Part shown: positions 6,318 through 33,918 of the stretch, in pieces
Position numbering within the stretch: the first letter of the stretch is position 1
How the letters are laid out: each line of letters starts with the position of its first letter
Assembly: GCA_938042355.1 (NCBI GenBank)
Contig: CALIRD010000052.1
Span: 1-33,918 of the forward strand
DNA: 33,918 bases
Direction: 5' to 3'
Source of the DNA: an uncultured Thiotrichales bacterium
GTDB lineage: Bacteria > Pseudomonadota > Gammaproteobacteria > CAZUMV01
Program-made: the position numbers and the translations under genes
The notes under the pieces: generated by a model
Databases searched by the model: none
The model's input: only the letters and a program-made list of their open reading frames with translations
Told to the model about the DNA's origin: nothing

Positions 6318-8557
6318 AGAAGCAACCTAGCAACACAATAAATTTGAACCGTAGACATTTTCTGGGTAGTGGTAGTGCCTTGATACTCGGCTTTACTATG
6401 GGGTGTAAGCAGGAAGCTTCTGAGGTCGCTGTAAGCTCGATAAAAAATGTGTCGGCCGAAGTAACCAAGGGATCTGATGAACCATTTATATCGACCCTCT
6501 TTAATGCCTGGTTGAGTATTAATAACAATGGCACCGTAACCATTCTCGCCAGCAACCCGGAAATCGGGCAAGGCGTTAAAACCGCCTTACCAATGATAGT
6601 TGCTGAAGAACTGGATTTCCCGTGGGAGAAAGTCATTGTTGAGCAAGCGCCGGTAGACCCGGTTGTGTATGAAAGACAAGTAGCGGGTGGTTCATTTTCT
6701 GTACGTTCGTTATGGGACCCTCTGCGTCAGGCGGGTGCCACGGCGCGTGCTATGTTAACCAGGGCCGCGGCAGATGGTTGGGGGGTAAATGTTTCTGACT
6801 GTACGGCAACACAAGGGTTGGTGACCAATACCGTTACCGGTGATTCGCTGGATTATGGCTCATTGGCAATCAAGGCCGCGCAATTACCGGTACCTGCATT
6901 AGACAGTCTTACACTTAAATCCGCGGCAAATTTCAGTCTGTTGGGTAAACGTATTTCAGGTGTTGATAACAGAGCTATTGTTACCGGGCAGCCTTTGTAT
7001 GGGATCGATGCCAACGTCGAAAACTTACACTTTGCCACCTACACCAGTTGCCCAAATGTTGGTGGCACTCTGCGTAGCAGTAACCTTGACCACATCAAAA
7101 ACCTCAAGGGCGTAAAGCAGGCTTTTGTTGTTAAAGGCAAGGGTGGTTATGGTGAGCTGCGTGAGGGGGTGGCAATCGTTGCAACTTCAACATGGGCGGC
7201 AATTTCAGCGAAGAAGCGACTGGAGATAGAGTGGGATACCAGTGCTGCATCCAGCGATGACTGGTCAGAAATGCATGAGCGAGCTAAACAGATAATCAGT
7301 GAAACTGAGGGCGAGTTATTGCATAGCGACGGTGATGCTGATGCAGCGTTGGCAAAAGCCAGTACAACAATAGAAGGCACTTACAGTTACCCTTTCGTTA
7401 GCCACGCTCCACTAGAACCTCAAAATTGTACCGTTAGCGTTGCTGAAGGCAAAGTGAATATCTGGGCACCAACACAAGTACCAGCGCGCGCGATGCAAGC
7501 GGCCGCCAAGATGTTTAATCTGGACCCAGCCAGCGTCACTGTGCATCAGCTTCGAGCAGGAGGCGGATTTGGACGTCGTTTATATAATGATTACTTCCTC
7601 GAAGCGGTAGCGATTGCACTGGAAGCTGCTGTCCCGGTTAAACTGCAATGGACTCGCGAAGACGACATGGCTCACGACTATTATCGTCCGGCAGGCACTC
7701 ACGGCTTGCAAGCCGGTCTTGACGATCAAGGTAAATTAACAGCCTGGAAAAATCACTATGTGACTTACAGTGAAGACGGTAAAGAACCCGTGCGCTGGGG
7801 TGCCTATATGGAGAGCACTTTTCCACGCCAGTTGGTAAATAATTATCAGGTTAATCAATCACTGCAACGTCAAACGATTCCTACCGGTGCCTGGCGCGCG
7901 CCTATCTCTTGTGCTTTTGGATTTGTCATTAATGGTTTTATTCATGAAGTGGCCACTGCAGCCGGCAAAGATCATCGTGATTTCATGCTCGAGCTACTTG
8001 AGAAGGATGATCAGATAGCAAGCTTGTTTGGTGACCCGTTTATACCCGCTAGGGCACGCGATACGATTACTGAAGTATGTAAGCGTGCTGGTTGGGGCAA
8101 TCAATCAATCAAGAATCGTGCTCTAGGACTGGCGTTTTATTTTTCACATAACGCGTACGTTGCTGAAGTGGCAGATGTTGAGGTAATGGCGGGTAATAAG
8201 GTGAAGATTCACAAGGTTTATATCGTCACCGATGTTGGCCCGATAGTGAATATGAGTATGGCTGAGAACATTTGTGAGGGCGGTATTATCGATGGGCTAA
8301 GCACGATGGCCAGACTGGAGCTGGATGCCAAAGCCGGTGCTGTAGTTGAATCTAACTTCGATCAGTACCAAATGTTACGGATGCCCGAAGCTCCTGAAAT
8401 CGATGTGCATTTCCTGCAAACGGATAATATTCCGGCTGGACTAGGCGAGCCTACCTTACCGCCAATTGCCGGGGCGGTGGTTAATGCCATATTCGCCGCT
8501 AGTGGAGAACGGGTGCGCGAATTACCACTGAGTCGCTCAGGATTTACACTGGCCTGA
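6314..8557 (+). CDS. Molybdopterin-binding large subunit, isoquinoline 1-oxidoreductase beta type
   Basis: A 747-residue molybdenum-cofactor subunit (IorB type, xanthine dehydrogenase family). The N-terminus has a twin-arginine signal (NRRHFLGSG, Arg13-Arg14), so the folded complex should go to the periplasm. A cysteine at 31 after TMG could be lipidated, but the lipobox is weak. Cofactor motifs include GGGFGRR, GAWRAP and, near the end, GLGEP with the predicted catalytic Glu712. Relatives oxidise N-heteroaromatics or aldehydes with water as oxygen source. The start at 6314 is set by the ATGA overlap with the small subunit. The cytochrome c gene 190 bp downstream is a likely electron acceptor. 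No cofactor-maturation gene is in the window. Confidence 0.9.
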
Positions 8558-25988: not shown

Positions 25989-26861
25989 ATGTCAGCCAAT
26001 ATCAGTTATATTCCACGCAAGAAAGATCATCACAGCAGTCATATATCCACCTTCTTTGACAAAAAGCACGGTGTTCATTGGGCAATCCTGAATAAAGACG
26101 CGCCTAAACGAATTACATTGGAAATGCTGAATGATTTACAGCAGGTCCAGAATGAAGTTAAAGACCATATTGATCAGCAAGGTGATCTTAACTACCAGAT
26201 TTTCACCTCCGCAATTCCCGGTATTTTTAGTTTGGGTGGCGATCTTGGTTTATTCTCACAGTGTTCAGTAACGCACGATCGTGCGACTCTGGAAAAATAT
26301 GCCCGAGTCTCAACAGACTTCGTCTATAACGGTGCGGTCAACTATCATAAGCCCATCACGACGATTTCAATTGTTAAGGGTGCGGCTTTTGGTGGTGGCT
26401 TTGAGGGCGCGCTCGGCGCCAATGTTGTCATCGCTGAAAAACAATCTTTGTTCTCGTTTCCTGAAACCCGATTTGGCATGTTCCCGGGTATGGGTGCTTT
26501 TACCTTGCTTAAACGCCGGGTGCCTGTGCACGTGGCGGAAGAAATTATTTTTTCAGCAAAAATCTATACAGCAGAACAACTGCATGACATGGGTGTGGTG
26601 GATATCGTCTGTGAAGAGGGTGAGGGTGACAGTACCGCCTCTGCCTTTATTGCCAAACGTCACCGACAAAAGAAGGGTATCGATACCATGCGCAGTATGG
26701 TGGAGCAGTTTGCGCCGGTAGACCGTGAAGAAATGTATGCCATTACTGATCGCTGGGTGGATTCAGCGCTGGATCTTGGTGAGAAAGAGCGGCGGATTAT
26801 TGAGGTGTTGATGAAGAAGAATGATCTTCGGACACTACAAGATCTGCTAGATACTGATTAA
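25989..26861 (+). CDS. rpfF: RpfF-like DSF synthase (crotonase fold)
   Basis: A 290-residue crotonase-family enzyme of the RpfF type, at the length of the Xanthomonas protein. The oxyanion-hole segment SLGGDLGLF (about 81-89), GGGFEGAL with Glu139 and FPETRFGMFPGMGA with Glu159 match the positions of the two catalytic glutamates known in RpfF (Glu141 and Glu161). The end WVDSALDLGEKERR also fits. RpfF dehydrates 3-hydroxyacyl-ACP to the cis-2-enoyl form and then hydrolyses the thioester, releasing the fatty-acid signal DSF. It is convergent with rpfC, and the two reading frames overlap by 65 bp. Plain enoyl-CoA hydratase is less likely given the motifs and neighbours. Confidence 0.88.
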   Translation: MSANISYIPRKKDHHSSHISTFFDKKHGVHWAILNKDAPKRITLEMLNDLQQVQNEVKDHIDQQGDLNYQIFTSAIPGIFSLGGDLGLFSQCSVTHDRATLEKYARVSTDFVYNGAVNYHKPITTISIVKGAAFGGGFEGALGANVVIAEKQSLFSFPETRFGMFPGMGAFTLLKRRVPVHVAEEIIFSAKIYTAEQLHDMGVVDIVCEEGEGDSTASAFIAKRHRQKKGIDTMRSMVEQFAPVDREEMYAITDRWVDSALDLGEKERRIIEVLMKKNDLRTLQDLLDTD

Positions 26862-29337
26862 ATTCTTCGATAGTACAGCTATAAATTTCTTGCAATTGCT
26901 GTTGTAACTCAGAGCAGTACGCTGGTGTGAAATCGATGCGTGCAATCAGCCGTAAATCGTTACAAAACTCCGCCAGTATGGGGGCACCAATTTGTAGTGA
27001 GCTACCTTTCAGGGCGTGAGCGGCTTCCAGTGTTTGCCCGTAGTCTTGCTCAGAAAAACCCTGGGTAAGTTCTTCAAGCATGGCTGTTGCATCCTTCAGA
27101 AAAGAATTCACCATGCGCTCAATGAATGTGTTGCCGTCTGGTGCCATATCGCCAAGGTTGTCCAATACCGCGTAATCGATATAGATCTTTGAAACTGTTT
27201 TGGTATTGTCTACCGCAAGTGCAATCGCTTGCTCACCGTCTACTTTCCGATGTTCTTCAACAAATAAATCGGGATACAGGCGTTGTATTTCAACACTAAT
27301 ATCTTTACCAATAAGTGGTTTGGTTAAAAAGCCGTCCATACCAGCTTCAAAAGCCGCAAGCCGGGTTTCTTCGGTGGCATCAGCTGTAATTAACAGAAAT
27401 TTGGTTGTGTTATTGCGACGCCAGGTATTGGATACACGATGGGTTTTGAGTACGTTGATGCCATCCATACCCGGCATGTTGCGATCCAGTATGACCAGTT
27501 CATAGTTTGCATCGGAATGGCTCAGTTGCTCCATTGCCTCCAGACCGTCATTGACCAGAGTAACGTGATGACCCTGTTTTTCCAGCATCATGCTCAGTAT
27601 GTCACGGTTGGTTTTGGCATCATCCGCCACCAGAATATTCAGCGGGCGCAAGGGTTTCAGTTTTTCACTGGCAATCGGTTGATGCAGATAGCTGCTTAGT
27701 ATCTGGTTAATGGTGTTCGTGCTGGTACTAGTTGTTGTCCATAATTCCAGAGATTTCTGGTTATTGGTAAAGCTGATGCGGTACAGGCCTTTGTCCTGCC
27801 CCATGCGAATGATTGGAGTATTCCCCAGTTTATGCTTTGTCAGAGTAGCCGAGATTTGTTCGCAACGGTGATTACTCAGGTCTTTACCGGTGAGTAGTAT
27901 CGGTTGCTCCGAATTTTTGAGTCGTTGTATGGCTTGCTCTGGTTTACTGAAATCCAGTTGGGTGATCACAGTGTCACTAAAGACGGACTTAATTTTGCGT
28001 TTTTCTTCATCTATCAATGCCACAGAGAACAAGCGTGAGGTGTTAATAGGTGAGGTATTGATTTCATTTTGCGTATAACTGACCGGGATTTTAAACCAAA
28101 ACGTGGAGCCTTGTTCCAACGTACTATCTACACCAATAAAGCCATTCATCTTGTTGACAAATTCTTTACAAATCGCCGTGCCTAGACCAGTTCCACCAAA
28201 TTGTCGGGTGATGCCGGAGTCGGCCTGCACAAAGGGGTCAAAAATGGTCTCGATAGACGCTTCATCAATACCGATGCCAGTATCCTGAACTTCAAAGCGC
28301 CAGCCAGGTTTGCCGTCCAGATCTTCACTGGTACCACGCAAGGTGATATTGCCCATCTGGGTAAATTTGATGGCATTACCCACCAGATTTATCAGTATTT
28401 GCTGCAGTTCAACCGGCGCAAATTCAGCTTGCTGGAACATCTCCGGATCCATTTCCACTATGTAGTCCAGACCCTTACGTTGTGCTTGCGGTGCCATCAG
28501 GCTTTTAACGTTTTTGAGTACGGTCAATAGTTCAGCTTCTTCAACATTCAATTCGAGTCGACCGGACTCAACTTTGGAGACGTCCAGTACATCACCAATC
28601 ATCGACATCAGGGTGTTGGCTGACTCGCTGATCATATTTACTTTGTTTCTGATTTCGCCTTCCAGCTCTTCATCCTTGAGCATATCTGCTGAAGCGACAA
28701 TACCCGTTAGAGGTGTGCGTAATTCATGACTCATGTTGGCCAAAAATTGAGATTTAACCATGTTGGCTTCGTTAGCGTGTTCCAATGCATGGTTTAGTCT
28801 GGTTATTAGCTTGGCGAGGTATAAAGGTATAATGGTTAAAGACAGAATTAGCCCAAGACTTAGTATGATGTTGTTTTGCCAATAGGCAGTTGTACTAATC
28901 ACATAACAAAAGCTGACTAAACAGGTTATTGCCATCAATTTTAAGTAAGTTACTCCGAAGCGAATTCCATAACCTACAATTTGCCAGAGATAGAAAACAA
29001 AAAATATACTGCCACTGTAGCCGAGAATGATAAGTAAACTTGATATGATCGCAGCGTCAGCGAACACACTCGATACTTTCAGAATAGTGGTGTTGATTTT
29101 AAACCAAAGTGCAGTTTGAACGGCAAGTGAGAATAACGTGATTAAACTCACTGCCATAGCTGTGTTAACAGCAGCTTGGCTAAGTTCCTTTGAATACCAC
29201 AAGTACAATAAATAGATGATACTTCCAGCAATGATCACATATCTGTTGAAGAGTTGTTGTTGTAACTCGCCAGCATCAGATTTACTTTGCTGATCAATAT
29301 ATTGTTTGATATTCAGCTTTGATTTCAAGAAAGACAT
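26797..29337 (-). CDS. rpfC: RpfC-like hybrid sensor histidine kinase for DSF
   Basis: An 846-residue membrane kinase. The N-terminal sensor has about five to six helices (31-175) with WQIVGYGIRFGVTYLK, close in layout to Xanthomonas RpfC. The dimerisation domain has His204 (FLANMSHELRTPL). The ATPase domain has the N box NLVGNAIKF (318-326), DTGIG (352-356) and GGTGLGTAI. Residues about 435-555 look like a degenerate receiver with no phospho-Asp. A true receiver follows with Asp572/573, Asp618 and Lys673, and a C-terminal HPt domain has His774 (AAHALKGSS). The length exceeds Xcc RpfC (726) by the extra receiver-like region. It should pass phosphate to RpfG. Confidence 0.9.
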   Translation of the reverse strand: MSFLKSKLNIKQYIDQQSKSDAGELQQQLFNRYVIIAGSIIYLLYLWYSKELSQAAVNTAMAVSLITLFSLAVQTALWFKINTTILKVSSVFADAAIISSLLIILGYSGSIFFVFYLWQIVGYGIRFGVTYLKLMAITCLVSFCYVISTTAYWQNNIILSLGLILSLTIIPLYLAKLITRLNHALEHANEANMVKSQFLANMSHELRTPLTGIVASADMLKDEELEGEIRNKVNMISESANTLMSMIGDVLDVSKVESGRLELNVEEAELLTVLKNVKSLMAPQAQRKGLDYIVEMDPEMFQQAEFAPVELQQILINLVGNAIKFTQMGNITLRGTSEDLDGKPGWRFEVQDTGIGIDEASIETIFDPFVQADSGITRQFGGTGLGTAICKEFVNKMNGFIGVDSTLEQGSTFWFKIPVSYTQNEINTSPINTSRLFSVALIDEEKRKIKSVFSDTVITQLDFSKPEQAIQRLKNSEQPILLTGKDLSNHRCEQISATLTKHKLGNTPIIRMGQDKGLYRISFTNNQKSLELWTTTSTSTNTINQILSSYLHQPIASEKLKPLRPLNILVADDAKTNRDILSMMLEKQGHHVTLVNDGLEAMEQLSHSDANYELVILDRNMPGMDGINVLKTHRVSNTWRRNNTTKFLLITADATEETRLAAFEAGMDGFLTKPLIGKDISVEIQRLYPDLFVEEHRKVDGEQAIALAVDNTKTVSKIYIDYAVLDNLGDMAPDGNTFIERMVNSFLKDATAMLEELTQGFSEQDYGQTLEAAHALKGSSLQIGAPILAEFCNDLRLIARIDFTPAYCSELQQQLQEIYSCTIEEFNQYLADLVVSEDHSSSSTPQ

Positions 29338-29536
29338 TTAATATGTTGTTGTAATAAAGATAGCCCTGAATTGTTGGAATATTTTATCCCTTCACTAACT
29401 GTTTAAAAAATATACAATGTGACGCAGTTCACCTTTTATAGGGCTGTAAAGTACTGAAAAGACAGGCGGTCTATTCTGACAGGAAATTGTGCGCTATTTC
29501 GCATTCGGGTTTGTAGAAACCCCATAAGGGCGCGCT

Positions 29537-30643
29537 TTAGTCTTCGAACGCCTTTTCGATTTTTTGAATGGTGCCTATGCACAACATAAAGGCATTGACG
29601 CAGTTGGGGTCAAAGTGTTTCCCAGACTCTCCTTCAATGTAGGCGATAGTTTTTTCAAGCGGCCAGGCTTCTTTGTAGGGTCGTTTGGAGCGTAGTGCAT
29701 CGTAGACATCGGCAATCGCAACCAGACGAGCTGCCATGGGGATATCTTCACCTTTGACGCCAAACGGATAACCTTTGCCGTCCCATCTTTCATGGTGGTA
29801 GAGCGCAATGTTGGCGCCTAGTTTGACGTATTTGGATTCACTGCCTGAGAGGATCTCATAACCAATACGGGTGTGGTTATGCATCATAGTGGCTTCTTCA
29901 CGGGTCAGACCGGATTGTTTATTGAGGATGGTATCGCTGATGCCGATTTTACCGACGTCGTGCATCGGTGCTGCCATTTCTATGGCTTCACATTCTTCTT
30001 GATCCAGACCGAGTTGTTCAGCAATGGTGCGGCAGTATTTCGCCATGCGTATCACATGATTACCGGTGTCTTCATCGCGGTATTCACCCGCGCGGGCCAA
30101 ACGGAAAATGGTTTCTTTTTCACGCGCACGTATTTCTCGAGTGGCTTCAGCAATTTCATGTTCGAGTTGGTCTGCGCGGCTACGTAAAGCCAGTTGCTGA
30201 TTACGGAGTTTAATCAGGTTCAGGCAACGCGCTTTAGCTTCTACTTCATCAATCGGGCGGGTGAGAAAATCACTGGCGCCTGCTTGCAGACATTTGTAGC
30301 GAGTGTTCTTATGACCATCGATGGTGATCACCAGAACCGGTATGTCTTCGCAATTGGGTTGTTTGCGAAATGCTTTGATAAATTGCTCGCCGTTCATTTG
30401 CGGCATGCGGAAGTCGGTTAAGACAAGGTCCGGGATTTCCTCTTCAAGCATATCCAGCACATATTCCGGGTTATCGAAGGCGCGTACTGTTAGCCCCGGA
30501 TCGATGCTTTCGATCAGCATTTTGAGTAGCTCTCGCCCGGTTGACATATCATCGATGACATAAACAGTCGAAGCCGTCGCAAGAATGCTGTCCTTGAACT
30601 CGCTGGTTGGGTCTATTTCAAATTCGATGTCAGATTCTTCCAT
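29537..30643 (-). CDS. rpfG: RpfG-like response regulator with HD-GYP phosphodiesterase
   Basis: A 368-residue regulator, near the length of Xanthomonas RpfG. The receiver has Asp31/32 and phospho-acceptor Asp77 (LVLTDFRMPQMNG). The conserved Lys that usually precedes Pro reads Arg129 (FLTRPID). A linker coiled coil (about 145-175) leads to an HD-GYP domain with HD at 228-229 (MHDVGKIGI), the second metal cluster HHERWDGKGYP (283-293) and a helix-flanked DVYDALRSKRPYK. HD-GYP domains cleave cyclic di-GMP. It is upstream of rpfC in the same direction with a 199-bp gap. Confidence 0.92.
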   Translation of the reverse strand: MEESDIEFEIDPTSEFKDSILATASTVYVIDDMSTGRELLKMLIESIDPGLTVRAFDNPEYVLDMLEEEIPDLVLTDFRMPQMNGEQFIKAFRKQPNCEDIPVLVITIDGHKNTRYKCLQAGASDFLTRPIDEVEAKARCLNLIKLRNQQLALRSRADQLEHEIAEATREIRAREKETIFRLARAGEYRDEDTGNHVIRMAKYCRTIAEQLGLDQEECEAIEMAAPMHDVGKIGISDTILNKQSGLTREEATMMHNHTRIGYEILSGSESKYVKLGANIALYHHERWDGKGYPFGVKGEDIPMAARLVAIADVYDALRSKRPYKEAWPLEKTIAYIEGESGKHFDPNCVNAFMLCIGTIQKIEKAFED

Positions 30644-30843: not shown

Positions 30844-31959
30844 TTAGCCGGGTCTCGTATTCAGATACGCTCGTTCAGAGATATTTGACCACTGAACCGC
30901 ACCCTCATAAAAGTCCGAATACGACTTGTGTATGCGGGTAGCAAGCGGAGAACTGTTGGCCATTTCATCGATGATTTCTGCAGCATAACCCCTCAGATTT
31001 TCCAATACTTCGGTGGGTAAGGGTTGTGGCGTTATGCTGTGATCGTTTTTCAGTTGTGCCAGCGCATCTTTGTTGCGCGCATTGTATTCAGCCAGCATGT
31101 ACTCATTGGCACTACTGGCTGCCGCTTTAACGATGGCTTTAAGATCATCGGGCAGGGCGTTATAGGCTTTTTGGTTAACCATGCATTCCAGCGTAGGCCC
31201 CGGCTCATGCCAGCCCGGGTAATAGTAGTGTTTGGCAACCTTGTGCAACCCAAACGCCAGATCGTTATACGGCCCGACCCATTCCGTCGCGTCGATAATG
31301 CCTTGCGACATGGAGGTGTAGATTTCGCCACCGGGAATATTGACCGGCGTACCGCCGGCACGTTCCAGTGCCTCACCGCCTAGTCCGGGTATACGCATTT
31401 TCAGACCCTTGAGATCAGCCACAGAGTTGATTTCTTTATTAAACCAGCCTGCCATTTGGACCCCGGTATTACCCGCCGCCATCGGAACCAGTCCGAAGCG
31501 TTCGTAGGCTTCTGCCCAGAGTTCCAGACCACCACCATGCAATAGCCAGGCATTCATTTCGGTTGCGGTCATGCCAAAGGGCAGTGCCGCAAAATATTGC
31601 AGTGCGGGATCTTTACCTTTCCAGTAATAGGTAGCGCCATGACCCATTTCTGCGGTACCGGTGGTGACCGTATCAAAGACTTCAAAGGCAGGTACCAGTT
31701 CCCCTGCACCATAGACTTTGACCGTCATTCTGCCACCGGACATCTCGCCGATTTTCTCAGCCAGATGATTGGCGCCGGTGCCGAGACCGGGAAAATTCAT
31801 CGGCCAGGTAGTCACCATTTTCCAGGTAATTTTTTTACCGCTGGCTACGGCGGGCGCAGCGGCGGTCGAGTCGCTTGCTTTACTGCAGCCACTTGCCAGT
31901 GCCGCACCGGCTACGATGGTGCCTGCGCTGGCCTTTTTTATAAAATCGCGACGTTTCAT
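30844..31959 (-). CDS. TRAP-type substrate-binding protein (TakP-like DctP)
   Basis: A 371-residue periplasmic binding protein of the DctP/TakP group. The signal is twin-arginine (KRRDFIKKA) and Cys25 in ASGC may be lipidated. Mature segments WKMVTTWPMNFPGLGTGANHL, GNTGVQMAGWFNKEI and LKMRIPGLGGEAL (the conserved Arg that holds the carboxylate) are typical of the keto-acid/lactate-binding branch. It feeds a sodium-driven TRAP permease. No DctQ or DctM gene is in the window: rpfG lies downstream and the fusion gene is divergent. Either the partner is elsewhere or the protein now serves another role. Confidence 0.88.
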   Translation of the reverse strand: MKRRDFIKKASAGTIVAGAALASGCSKASDSTAAAPAVASGKKITWKMVTTWPMNFPGLGTGANHLAEKIGEMSGGRMTVKVYGAGELVPAFEVFDTVTTGTAEMGHGATYYWKGKDPALQYFAALPFGMTATEMNAWLLHGGGLELWAEAYERFGLVPMAAGNTGVQMAGWFNKEINSVADLKGLKMRIPGLGGEALERAGGTPVNIPGGEIYTSMSQGIIDATEWVGPYNDLAFGLHKVAKHYYYPGWHEPGPTLECMVNQKAYNALPDDLKAIVKAAASSANEYMLAEYNARNKDALAQLKNDHSITPQPLPTEVLENLRGYAAEIIDEMANSSPLATRIHKSYSDFYEGAVQWSNISERAYLNTRPG

Positions 31960-32089: not shown

Positions 32090-33918
32090 ATGGATTATTA
32101 CATCGCAATTGATCAGGGTACGCATGCCACTCGTGCTCTGTTATACGACCAGCATGGCAATCAGGTAGAGAGTAAATGGACCAAGGTCCAGCTGGAACGT
32201 GTACAAGATGGCTGGATAGAACAAGACAGTCAGGAATTGCTCGACTCTGTGCTTGGCACGGTGCAGCGTTTACTCGATAGTCTAACCGACGAACAGCGTG
32301 GTTCAGTGCGTGCCGCCGGTATTGCTACCCAGCGTTCCTCAGTATTGCTCATGGATCAGGACGGAAATGCCGTCAGCCCGATTTTGAGTTGGCAGGATGT
32401 ACGCGCCGCCGATTTTTTAAAAACGATCAGTCATCAACATCAGGCAATCACCTCAATCACGGGTTTACCGGTCTCGGCACACTATGGTGCGAGTAAATTA
32501 CGCTGGTTGGTAGACCAACATAAACCCGATAAAAATACAGTCATGCTGGCGCCATTGGTGTCGTATTACTTGTTTCATTTGTTGGGTAAAAAGCGTTTTT
32601 GTGTTGATCACAGTAACGCTCAGCGTACCCAGTTATTTGATCTGGATACACTGGATTGGTCTCCTGAATTAGTAAAGCTCTATGGACTTGAGGGATATCG
32701 CTTGCCCGAATGTCTACCGATGGCTGCCGAGTATGGGGAGCTACTCGATACTGGTATTCCCTTCATGGCTAGTGGTGGCGATCAAAATGCAGCGATCCAT
32801 GGCGCGGGACGTTTGCCGGATGATACGGCCTTGATGAATCTGGGCAGCGGTGCTTTTGTGATGCGACCGATGCAGCAGCGGCAAAGCGGTAATGGTCTGC
32901 TCAGTAGTGTGGCGTACTCTGATCAACAGTCCACCAGATACTTGCGCGAAGGTACCGTGAATGGCTCGGGCACGGCATTGAGCTGGGCAACAAAAGAGTG
33001 GGATCTACCCGATACCCGTGAACATCTGTCTGACTGGTGTGACGAGATTTCCGAACCTCCTGTTTTTATTAACAGTGTCGGAGGCTTGGGCAGCCCCTGG
33101 TGGCGACGGGATGTTGATCCGGAGATACTGGCAGAAGATAAAAAAATCAGTAAGGCCGGCAAGGCTGTTGCAGTAGCCGAAAGTATTTTGTTTTTGCTCA
33201 ATACCAATCTGGAGTTAATGCGCCGTGAATTGCCGATCAATCGCCTGCGCTTGAGTGGTGGTCTGAGCCAGCAACACGCGGTTTGTCAAAAGCTGGCTAA
33301 CCTGACCGGCCTGCCAGTGGAAAGAGTGGATAACCCGGAAGCAACCGCCCGGGGTATTGCCTGGTTGGCTGCCGGGCAACCAGACGGGTGGCAAAACATT
33401 ACCATGAAGTCCTTTACGCCTCAGGCTGATCGTTCTATCCGGGAACGCTACTGGCTGTACTTCGACTTTTTACGCACCTTGCCGCCACCAGCTGGATCTG
33501 TGCCAGCGTTAGTCGGTCATCGTGGTTTAATGGAGCACTATCCTGAAAATACCCTGTCGTCGATTGCAGCAGCAGTAGGCGCCGGTGCACCGCATATCGA
33601 ATTTGATGTGCAGATGGCGGCGGATGGAGAGTTGGTAGTCATACACGATGACACGATAGATAGAACCTGCGATGAAAAAGGCAGTATCTTTTCAAAAACC
33701 AGTGTTGAACTAACCGCACTAAGCGCGCACTACCCGAAAAAATTCAAACAGGACTTCTATCCCGAACCGGTACCCTTGCTCACCGAGGTATTGGATTATC
33801 TGGATGGCTACCCGCAGGTAACGTCGTATGTCGAAATCAAGGAAGAGTCTATGACTCGGTTCGGCTTGGACAAGGTGATGGATAAATTGATCGCGGTGCT
33901 GTCACAGCATCGTGCACC
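32090..33918 (+). CDS. FGGY carbohydrate kinase fused to glycerophosphodiester phosphodiesterase, partial
   Basis: The frame from the ATG at 32090 is open to the window end (609 residues). Residues 1 to about 465 are an FGGY kinase of glycerol-kinase type: IDQGTHATRALLYD, ASGGDQNAAIHGAG (Asp231) and LMNLGSGAF. At the sugar-binding site Arg82 is kept, but the Glu that follows in GlpK is Ser83; Trp101 and Tyr132 are kept. From about 472 a glycerophosphodiester phosphodiesterase begins: GHRG (His477, Arg478), PENTLSSI, IEFDVQ (Glu504, Asp506) and IHDDTIDRT (His519). Both catalytic parts look intact. Together they would make glycerol-3-phosphate or a related polyol phosphate from two sources. The 3' end is missing. 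Confidence 0.85.
   Translation, partial: MDYYIAIDQGTHATRALLYDQHGNQVESKWTKVQLERVQDGWIEQDSQELLDSVLGTVQRLLDSLTDEQRGSVRAAGIATQRSSVLLMDQDGNAVSPILSWQDVRAADFLKTISHQHQAITSITGLPVSAHYGASKLRWLVDQHKPDKNTVMLAPLVSYYLFHLLGKKRFCVDHSNAQRTQLFDLDTLDWSPELVKLYGLEGYRLPECLPMAAEYGELLDTGIPFMASGGDQNAAIHGAGRLPDDTALMNLGSGAFVMRPMQQRQSGNGLLSSVAYSDQQSTRYLREGTVNGSGTALSWATKEWDLPDTREHLSDWCDEISEPPVFINSVGGLGSPWWRRDVDPEILAEDKKISKAGKAVAVAESILFLLNTNLELMRRELPINRLRLSGGLSQQHAVCQKLANLTGLPVERVDNPEATARGIAWLAAGQPDGWQNITMKSFTPQADRSIRERYWLYFDFLRTLPPPAGSVPALVGHRGLMEHYPENTLSSIAAAVGAGAPHIEFDVQMAADGELVVIHDDTIDRTCDEKGSIFSKTSVELTALSAHYPKKFKQDFYPEPVPLLTEVLDYLDGYPQVTSYVEIKEESMTRFGLDKVMDKLIAVLSQHRA

Follow-up and report, generated by a model that had tools for sequence, protein, structure and literature searches.

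In Mycoplasma pneumoniae, GlpQ, GlpK and GlpD form a pathway of separate proteins, in which glpQ (MPN420) does not lie beside glpK and glpD (MPN050/051) and the last enzyme is an H2O2-forming oxidase (PMC3178575). Glycerol kinases are defined by five positions, R83, E84, Y135, D245 and F270 in the numbering of E. coli GlpK (PMC3245297), and a published study of a Marinobacter glycerophosphodiester phosphodiesterase (GDPD) concerns a secreted GlpQ-like protein (PMC7824750). Here we describe a gene of an uncultured Thiotrichales bacterium in which an FGGY kinase and a GDPD are joined in one frame. The first-pass annotation, made from the sequence alone, knew of no such fusion as a described enzyme, and no description of it was found in the open literature that we searched.

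The window, that is, the whole stretch of DNA analysed (33,918 nucleotides), is one of 197 contigs of a genome (G000) that is 72% complete. An open frame on the forward strand (32090..33916) runs without a stop up to the window end. The last 141 bases (33778..33918) are identical to the end of another contig of the same genome, C65, and this overlap lets the gene be completed: the window carries the 5' 609 codons (32090..33918, forward strand), and the rest lies on C65 (locus L003, minus strand, to base 8202). Joining the two contigs at the exact match gives a stop after 718 amino acids, so that looking beyond the window, as had been advised, supplied the end of the gene. In the protein, an FGGY kinase is followed by a linker of about 16 residues and then by the GDPD. 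FGGY_N (32096..32797, residues 3-236) contains D8, T11, R15, Q81, R82, the catalytic-base equivalent D231, and Q232, and FGGY_C (32831..33373) covers residues 248-428; their scores of 151.6 and 77.5 bits against gathering thresholds of 28.8 and 27 place the protein among the FGGY kinases (PF00370/PF02782). At the junction (33455..33502, residues 456-471) there is no stop, and the C-terminal helix of the kinase passes almost straight into the GDPD. The first part of the GDPD (33503..33918, from residue 472, the remainder being on C65) carries HRG at 477-479, PEN, E504/D506, H519 and E582/K584. The Pfam GDPD match (PF03009) begins at residue 477 and scores 84.6 bits for the truncated window frame and 87.4 bits for the complete protein of a related genome, against a gathering threshold of 23.6. 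The domain limits first proposed, about 465 for the end of the kinase and about 472 for the start of the GDPD, were right within a few residues.

The related genome (G001) is an uncultured Thiotrichales metagenome-assembled genome of the same genus, and it encodes the whole fusion in one frame on a single contig (CALISW010000147.1; 717 amino acids, 90% amino acid identity). This contig aligned to our joined sequence without a break over about 7.1 kb across the join. The two reading frames differ at 384 nucleotides, of which 287 are third codon positions; no stop interrupts either frame, and their lengths differ by one codon only. The dN/dS ratio between them was 0.043 for the kinase, 0.044 for the linker and 0.063 for the GDPD, with a dS of about 1.2 and a dN of 0.06; the junction is thus under purifying selection like the domains on either side. 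Because the differences are rich in third positions, no stop intervenes and dN/dS is low, the two genomes and the collinear contig exclude both a sequencing or assembly error and a frame left open by chance. Neither genome has a frameshift between the domains or a stop there, which the first-pass annotation had named as refuting, and the in-frame fusion proposed from the window alone is borne out. From the single-contig frame in the second genome, the collinearity and the dN/dS values, we therefore conclude that the fusion is a real protein under selection. Upstream, a gene for a DctP TRAP transporter substrate-binding protein (30844-31959, minus strand) diverges from the fusion gene at a distance of 130 bases, an arrangement that is likewise present in G001. 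Farther upstream (25989-30643), genes are arranged like an rpf diffusible-signal system: a crotonase-like one that resembles RpfF but scores under the RpfF cut-off, one for a hybrid sensor kinase, and one for a response regulator that matches a family of c-di-GMP phosphodiesterases.

The kinase half departs from the glycerol kinase signature at two positions. R82, D231 and F256 are present, and Ser83 (32336..32338, forward strand) and His131 (32480..32482, forward strand) replace the Glu84 and Tyr135 of E. coli GlpK, the former a glycerol-contact position. Among 137 members of the same kinase subfamily, 128 have Ser and none has Glu at the first position, and 126 have His at the second. In the alignment, the equivalents of the E. 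coli ATP and catalytic residues D10, R83, D245, Q246 and F270 are conserved, as is that of Q82. Against TIGR01311, the GlpK equivalog family, the kinase scores 243.6 bits, below the cut-off of 590.35 (E. coli GlpK scores 765.8), and the tree sets its subfamily deeply apart from five canonical GlpKs. All of the best family and fold matches of the kinase are glycerol kinases. An AlphaFold model of the window fusion (pLDDT 94.5, pTM 0.88) matched solved structures of glycerol kinases along the full length of its kinase half (TM to target mostly 0.8-0.87, with a best E of about 1e-38), and a second, independently arisen fusion gave a comparable model (pLDDT 94.1, pTM 0.87) in which the linker is one long helix. 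Judged by its sequence, the kinase is a member of a divergent GlpK-type subfamily, distinct from canonical GlpK. Automated annotation would name it 'glycerol kinase' despite the two differing substrate-contact residues. In the GDPD half, the HRG, E, D, H and ExK residues align with H12, E39, D41, H54, E114 and K116 of E. coli UgpQ and are 100% conserved in 91 sequences, six fused ones included. The earlier impression that both active sites look intact accordingly holds for the GDPD and has to be qualified for the kinase, which lacks two of the five signature residues and reaches 244 bits where 590 are required.

The next reading frame, of 387 amino acids, overlaps the fusion gene by 11 bases and encodes a GlpD-like glycerol-3-phosphate (G3P) dehydrogenase. 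It scores 289.6 bits against the 360 of the aerobic GlpD equivalog (NF008899), and the match stops at profile position 393 of 508. In related Gammaproteobacteria, separate genes, usually adjacent and often overlapping, encode the same kinase, GDPD and short GlpD. In the closest relatives, the stop of the kinase gene and the start of the GDPD gene overlap or lie within a few bases of each other in a different frame, and therefore one small indel would fuse them. At three loci (L228, L229, L230) the GDPD and short GlpD genes adjoin without a kinase, which suggests that these two form the core of the module. One cluster (L227, genome G012, contig C21, 2505-5965) consists of GDPD, short GlpD and a canonical GlpK that carries the E. 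coli signature (QRET, PYFSATK), a natural swap in the kinase slot. Elsewhere (L066 in G186, L115 in G066) the kinase is decayed or internally shortened with the adjoining GDPD still open, and in G186 the GlpD is shortened too. Beyond the three genes, no widespread conserved neighbour was seen within 3.5 kb of 70 loci. Five loci, among them L085 (7142-9001), have a further gene on the strand of the cluster and no more than 160 bases behind it; by inspection its product resembles a class II aldolase/short-chain dehydrogenase protein.

Kinases of this subfamily were found in 72 of 369 genomes of the class. Combining the loci from these genomes with a scan of GTDB genomes, we classified 138 non-redundant kinases: 6 are fused to a GDPD, 64 have a GDPD directly downstream and 19 have one upstream, often with the short GlpD in between. 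In the remainder, the GDPD is on the other strand, farther away or absent from the stretch fetched, some of these kinases being at contig ends. Further candidate fusions suggested by long open frames (G138, G207, G270, G338, G180, G083) turned out to be separate genes. On several contigs labelled Phycisphaerales, Acidobacteriota or Chloroflexota (L161, L190, L145, L159, L160) the same kinase occurs, at some of them with the cluster, which reflects either horizontal transfer or misbinned contigs.

The six fused proteins fall into three groups, namely the window with G001, G332 with G373 and the metagenome-assembled L187, and G090. The junction in G373 is intact, with the kinase part upstream of it broken into two frames. 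In a kinase tree of 50 rows the starred branches require the fused label to change three times, and a GDPD tree of 43 sequences returns the same three groups. A single fused group appeared in 0 of 200 bootstraps of either tree, so a single origin was rejected on both, and a quick tree of 142 rows agrees with the three groups. Since both half-trees put the fused proteins in three groups, and dozens of unfused lineages lie between them, about three independent origins appear far simpler than one gain followed by losses. The linkers also differ among the groups, from a short end-to-end join in the window group to a longer one in the G332 group. Such repeated merging suggests a working pair of enzymes. 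Production of a separate GDPD from an internal start appears unlikely for the window gene. Its possible starts lie ahead of the catalytic His, a GTG by 6 codons and a TTG by 13; of these the TTG alone is common to the window and G001, and no ribosome site is evident at it on inspection of the sequence. At the linker of the G332 group there is no start codon within 30 codons.

The distribution of the kinase bears on its substrate. Canonical GlpK above the cut-off was found in 3 of the 72 genomes that have the subfamily kinase and in 93 of the 297 that lack it (Fisher p = 1.8e-7, with no correction for relatedness). The two kinases are almost mutually exclusive among genomes, which is the pattern that replacement of one by the other would give. 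G001 is an exception, with a canonical GlpK on contig C158 (L204); none was seen in the window's genome, itself only 72% complete. Full-length GlpD above the cut-off was present in 2 of 72 genomes with the subfamily kinase versus 32 of 72 with canonical GlpK, and GlpF-like porins were rarer as well (8 of 72 versus 22 of 72 comparison genomes). The scarcity of these channels would fit glycerol being made inside the cell, for example by a GDPD acting on glycerophosphoglycerol. Because of the near-exclusivity with GlpK, the canonical GlpK in the kinase slot of G012 and the GlpD-like downstream enzyme, glycerol is the probable substrate of the kinase.

Taken together, we consider it reasonably probable that the protein is a bifunctional cytoplasmic enzyme of lipid head-group salvage that makes G3P for the downstream dehydrogenase. 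The C-terminal GDPD would hydrolyse glycerophosphodiesters from deacylated phospholipids to sn-glycerol-3-phosphate and an alcohol; the N-terminal kinase would phosphorylate glycerol with ATP to G3P, including glycerol freed by the GDPD from glycerophosphoglycerol; and the overlapping short GlpD-like FAD dehydrogenase would oxidise G3P to dihydroxyacetone phosphate. With these predicted substrates, the convergence on G3P of a glycerol-kinase-like enzyme and a GDPD, as originally read from the window, is taken as right. The fusion itself probably arose from an ancestral pair of overlapping kinase and GDPD genes through loss of the kinase stop, and it could bring co-expression, a fixed 1:1 ratio or hand-over of glycerol. 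The gene structure, the domains, the selection, the conserved catalytic residues, the gene cluster and the repeated fusion are observed; the substrates, the way the flux runs and any advantage of being fused are what we infer. A bolder version, which we regard as rather doubtful, is a self-contained enzyme for the phosphatidylglycerol head group: glycerophosphoglycerol would be split to G3P and glycerol, the kinase would capture the glycerol before it diffuses away, and two G3P per substrate would reach the short GlpD, with the Ser83/His131 pocket marking a separate glycerol-kinase class that displaces GlpK in many Gammaproteobacteria.

Several observations pull against the salvage reading. 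The E84S and Y135H changes leave specificity for glycerol uncertain, the kinase scores far short of the GlpK cut-off, and G001 has a canonical GlpK as well. The kinase might instead act on another small polyol or sugar, which the GDPD releases or the cell imports, and the fusion would then process a specific glycerophospho-polyol or -sugar. The near-uniform change of two of the five defining positions and the deep separation from the five canonical GlpKs speak for such a substrate. However, R83, D245, Q246 and F270 are kept, the nearest families and folds are glycerol kinases, the next gene is G3P-dehydrogenase-like, and both the near-exclusive distribution and the occurrence of a canonical GlpK in the same slot in G012 point back to glycerol, so that we hold another substrate to be unlikely.

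That the fusion brings no gain and came about neutrally, by loss of a stop between overlapping genes, is quite possible, if not the account we favour, and it is compatible with the activities proposed under the salvage reading, since each enzyme would function as its unfused counterpart does. Where the genes are unfused they already share a few bases, so that a small indel is enough to join them; fusions are rare (6 of 138 non-redundant kinases); and the linkers of the three groups are unlike one another. Against neutrality stand the three apparent independent origins, the retention of the fusion across the divergence of G332, G373 and L187, and the purifying selection on the linker and both domains; the confident models of two independent fusions also count here, although they are no proof of contact between the sites. 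It is scarcely conceivable, finally, that a sequencing or assembly artefact joined two genes: the gene does cross a contig end in the window's genome and needs a join for its completion, but the kinase-GDPD junction is followed by about 400 further bases of the window contig, an independent genome with dS above 1 has the same frame on one contig, and fusions are present in other lineages too.

That the same two genes merged repeatedly is strong evidence, at the genomic level, that their enzymes belong together. It points to an alternative module for glycerol/G3P salvage, made up of divergent kinase, GDPD and short GlpD. Across a large set of Gammaproteobacteria this module seems to stand in for canonical GlpK, and several of its hosts belong to genera named for sulfur oxidisers. 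Compared with GlpK (TIGR01311; E. coli b3926), the fusion kinase shares the FGGY fold and the equivalents of D245/Q246, R83, F270 and D10, but it is shorter (about 460 versus 500 residues), forms a separate clade, is fused to a GDPD and carries Glu84 to Ser and Tyr135 to His changes. The GDPD shares with UgpQ (E. coli b3449; NF006989) the PF03009 domain and its HRG, PEN, E, D, H and ExK residues. It differs from UgpQ in its score (73 bits for the partial window frame against a cut-off of 264), in a C-terminal part with W.W..Y where UgpQ has its YTVN region, and in being joined to a kinase, with no adjoining Ugp transporter. The downstream protein has the FAD-dependent DAO domain, and its closest solved structure is GlpD (E. 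coli b3426; 2QCU), whereas its 387 residues, compared with 501, leave out the C-terminal part of GlpD. As in the M. pneumoniae pathway, the same three activities, here predicted, would converge on dihydroxyacetone phosphate. The catalytic domains and the pathway are known ones; what is new, and apparently undescribed, is their recurring covalent arrangement together with a kinase subfamily that has an altered substrate pocket.
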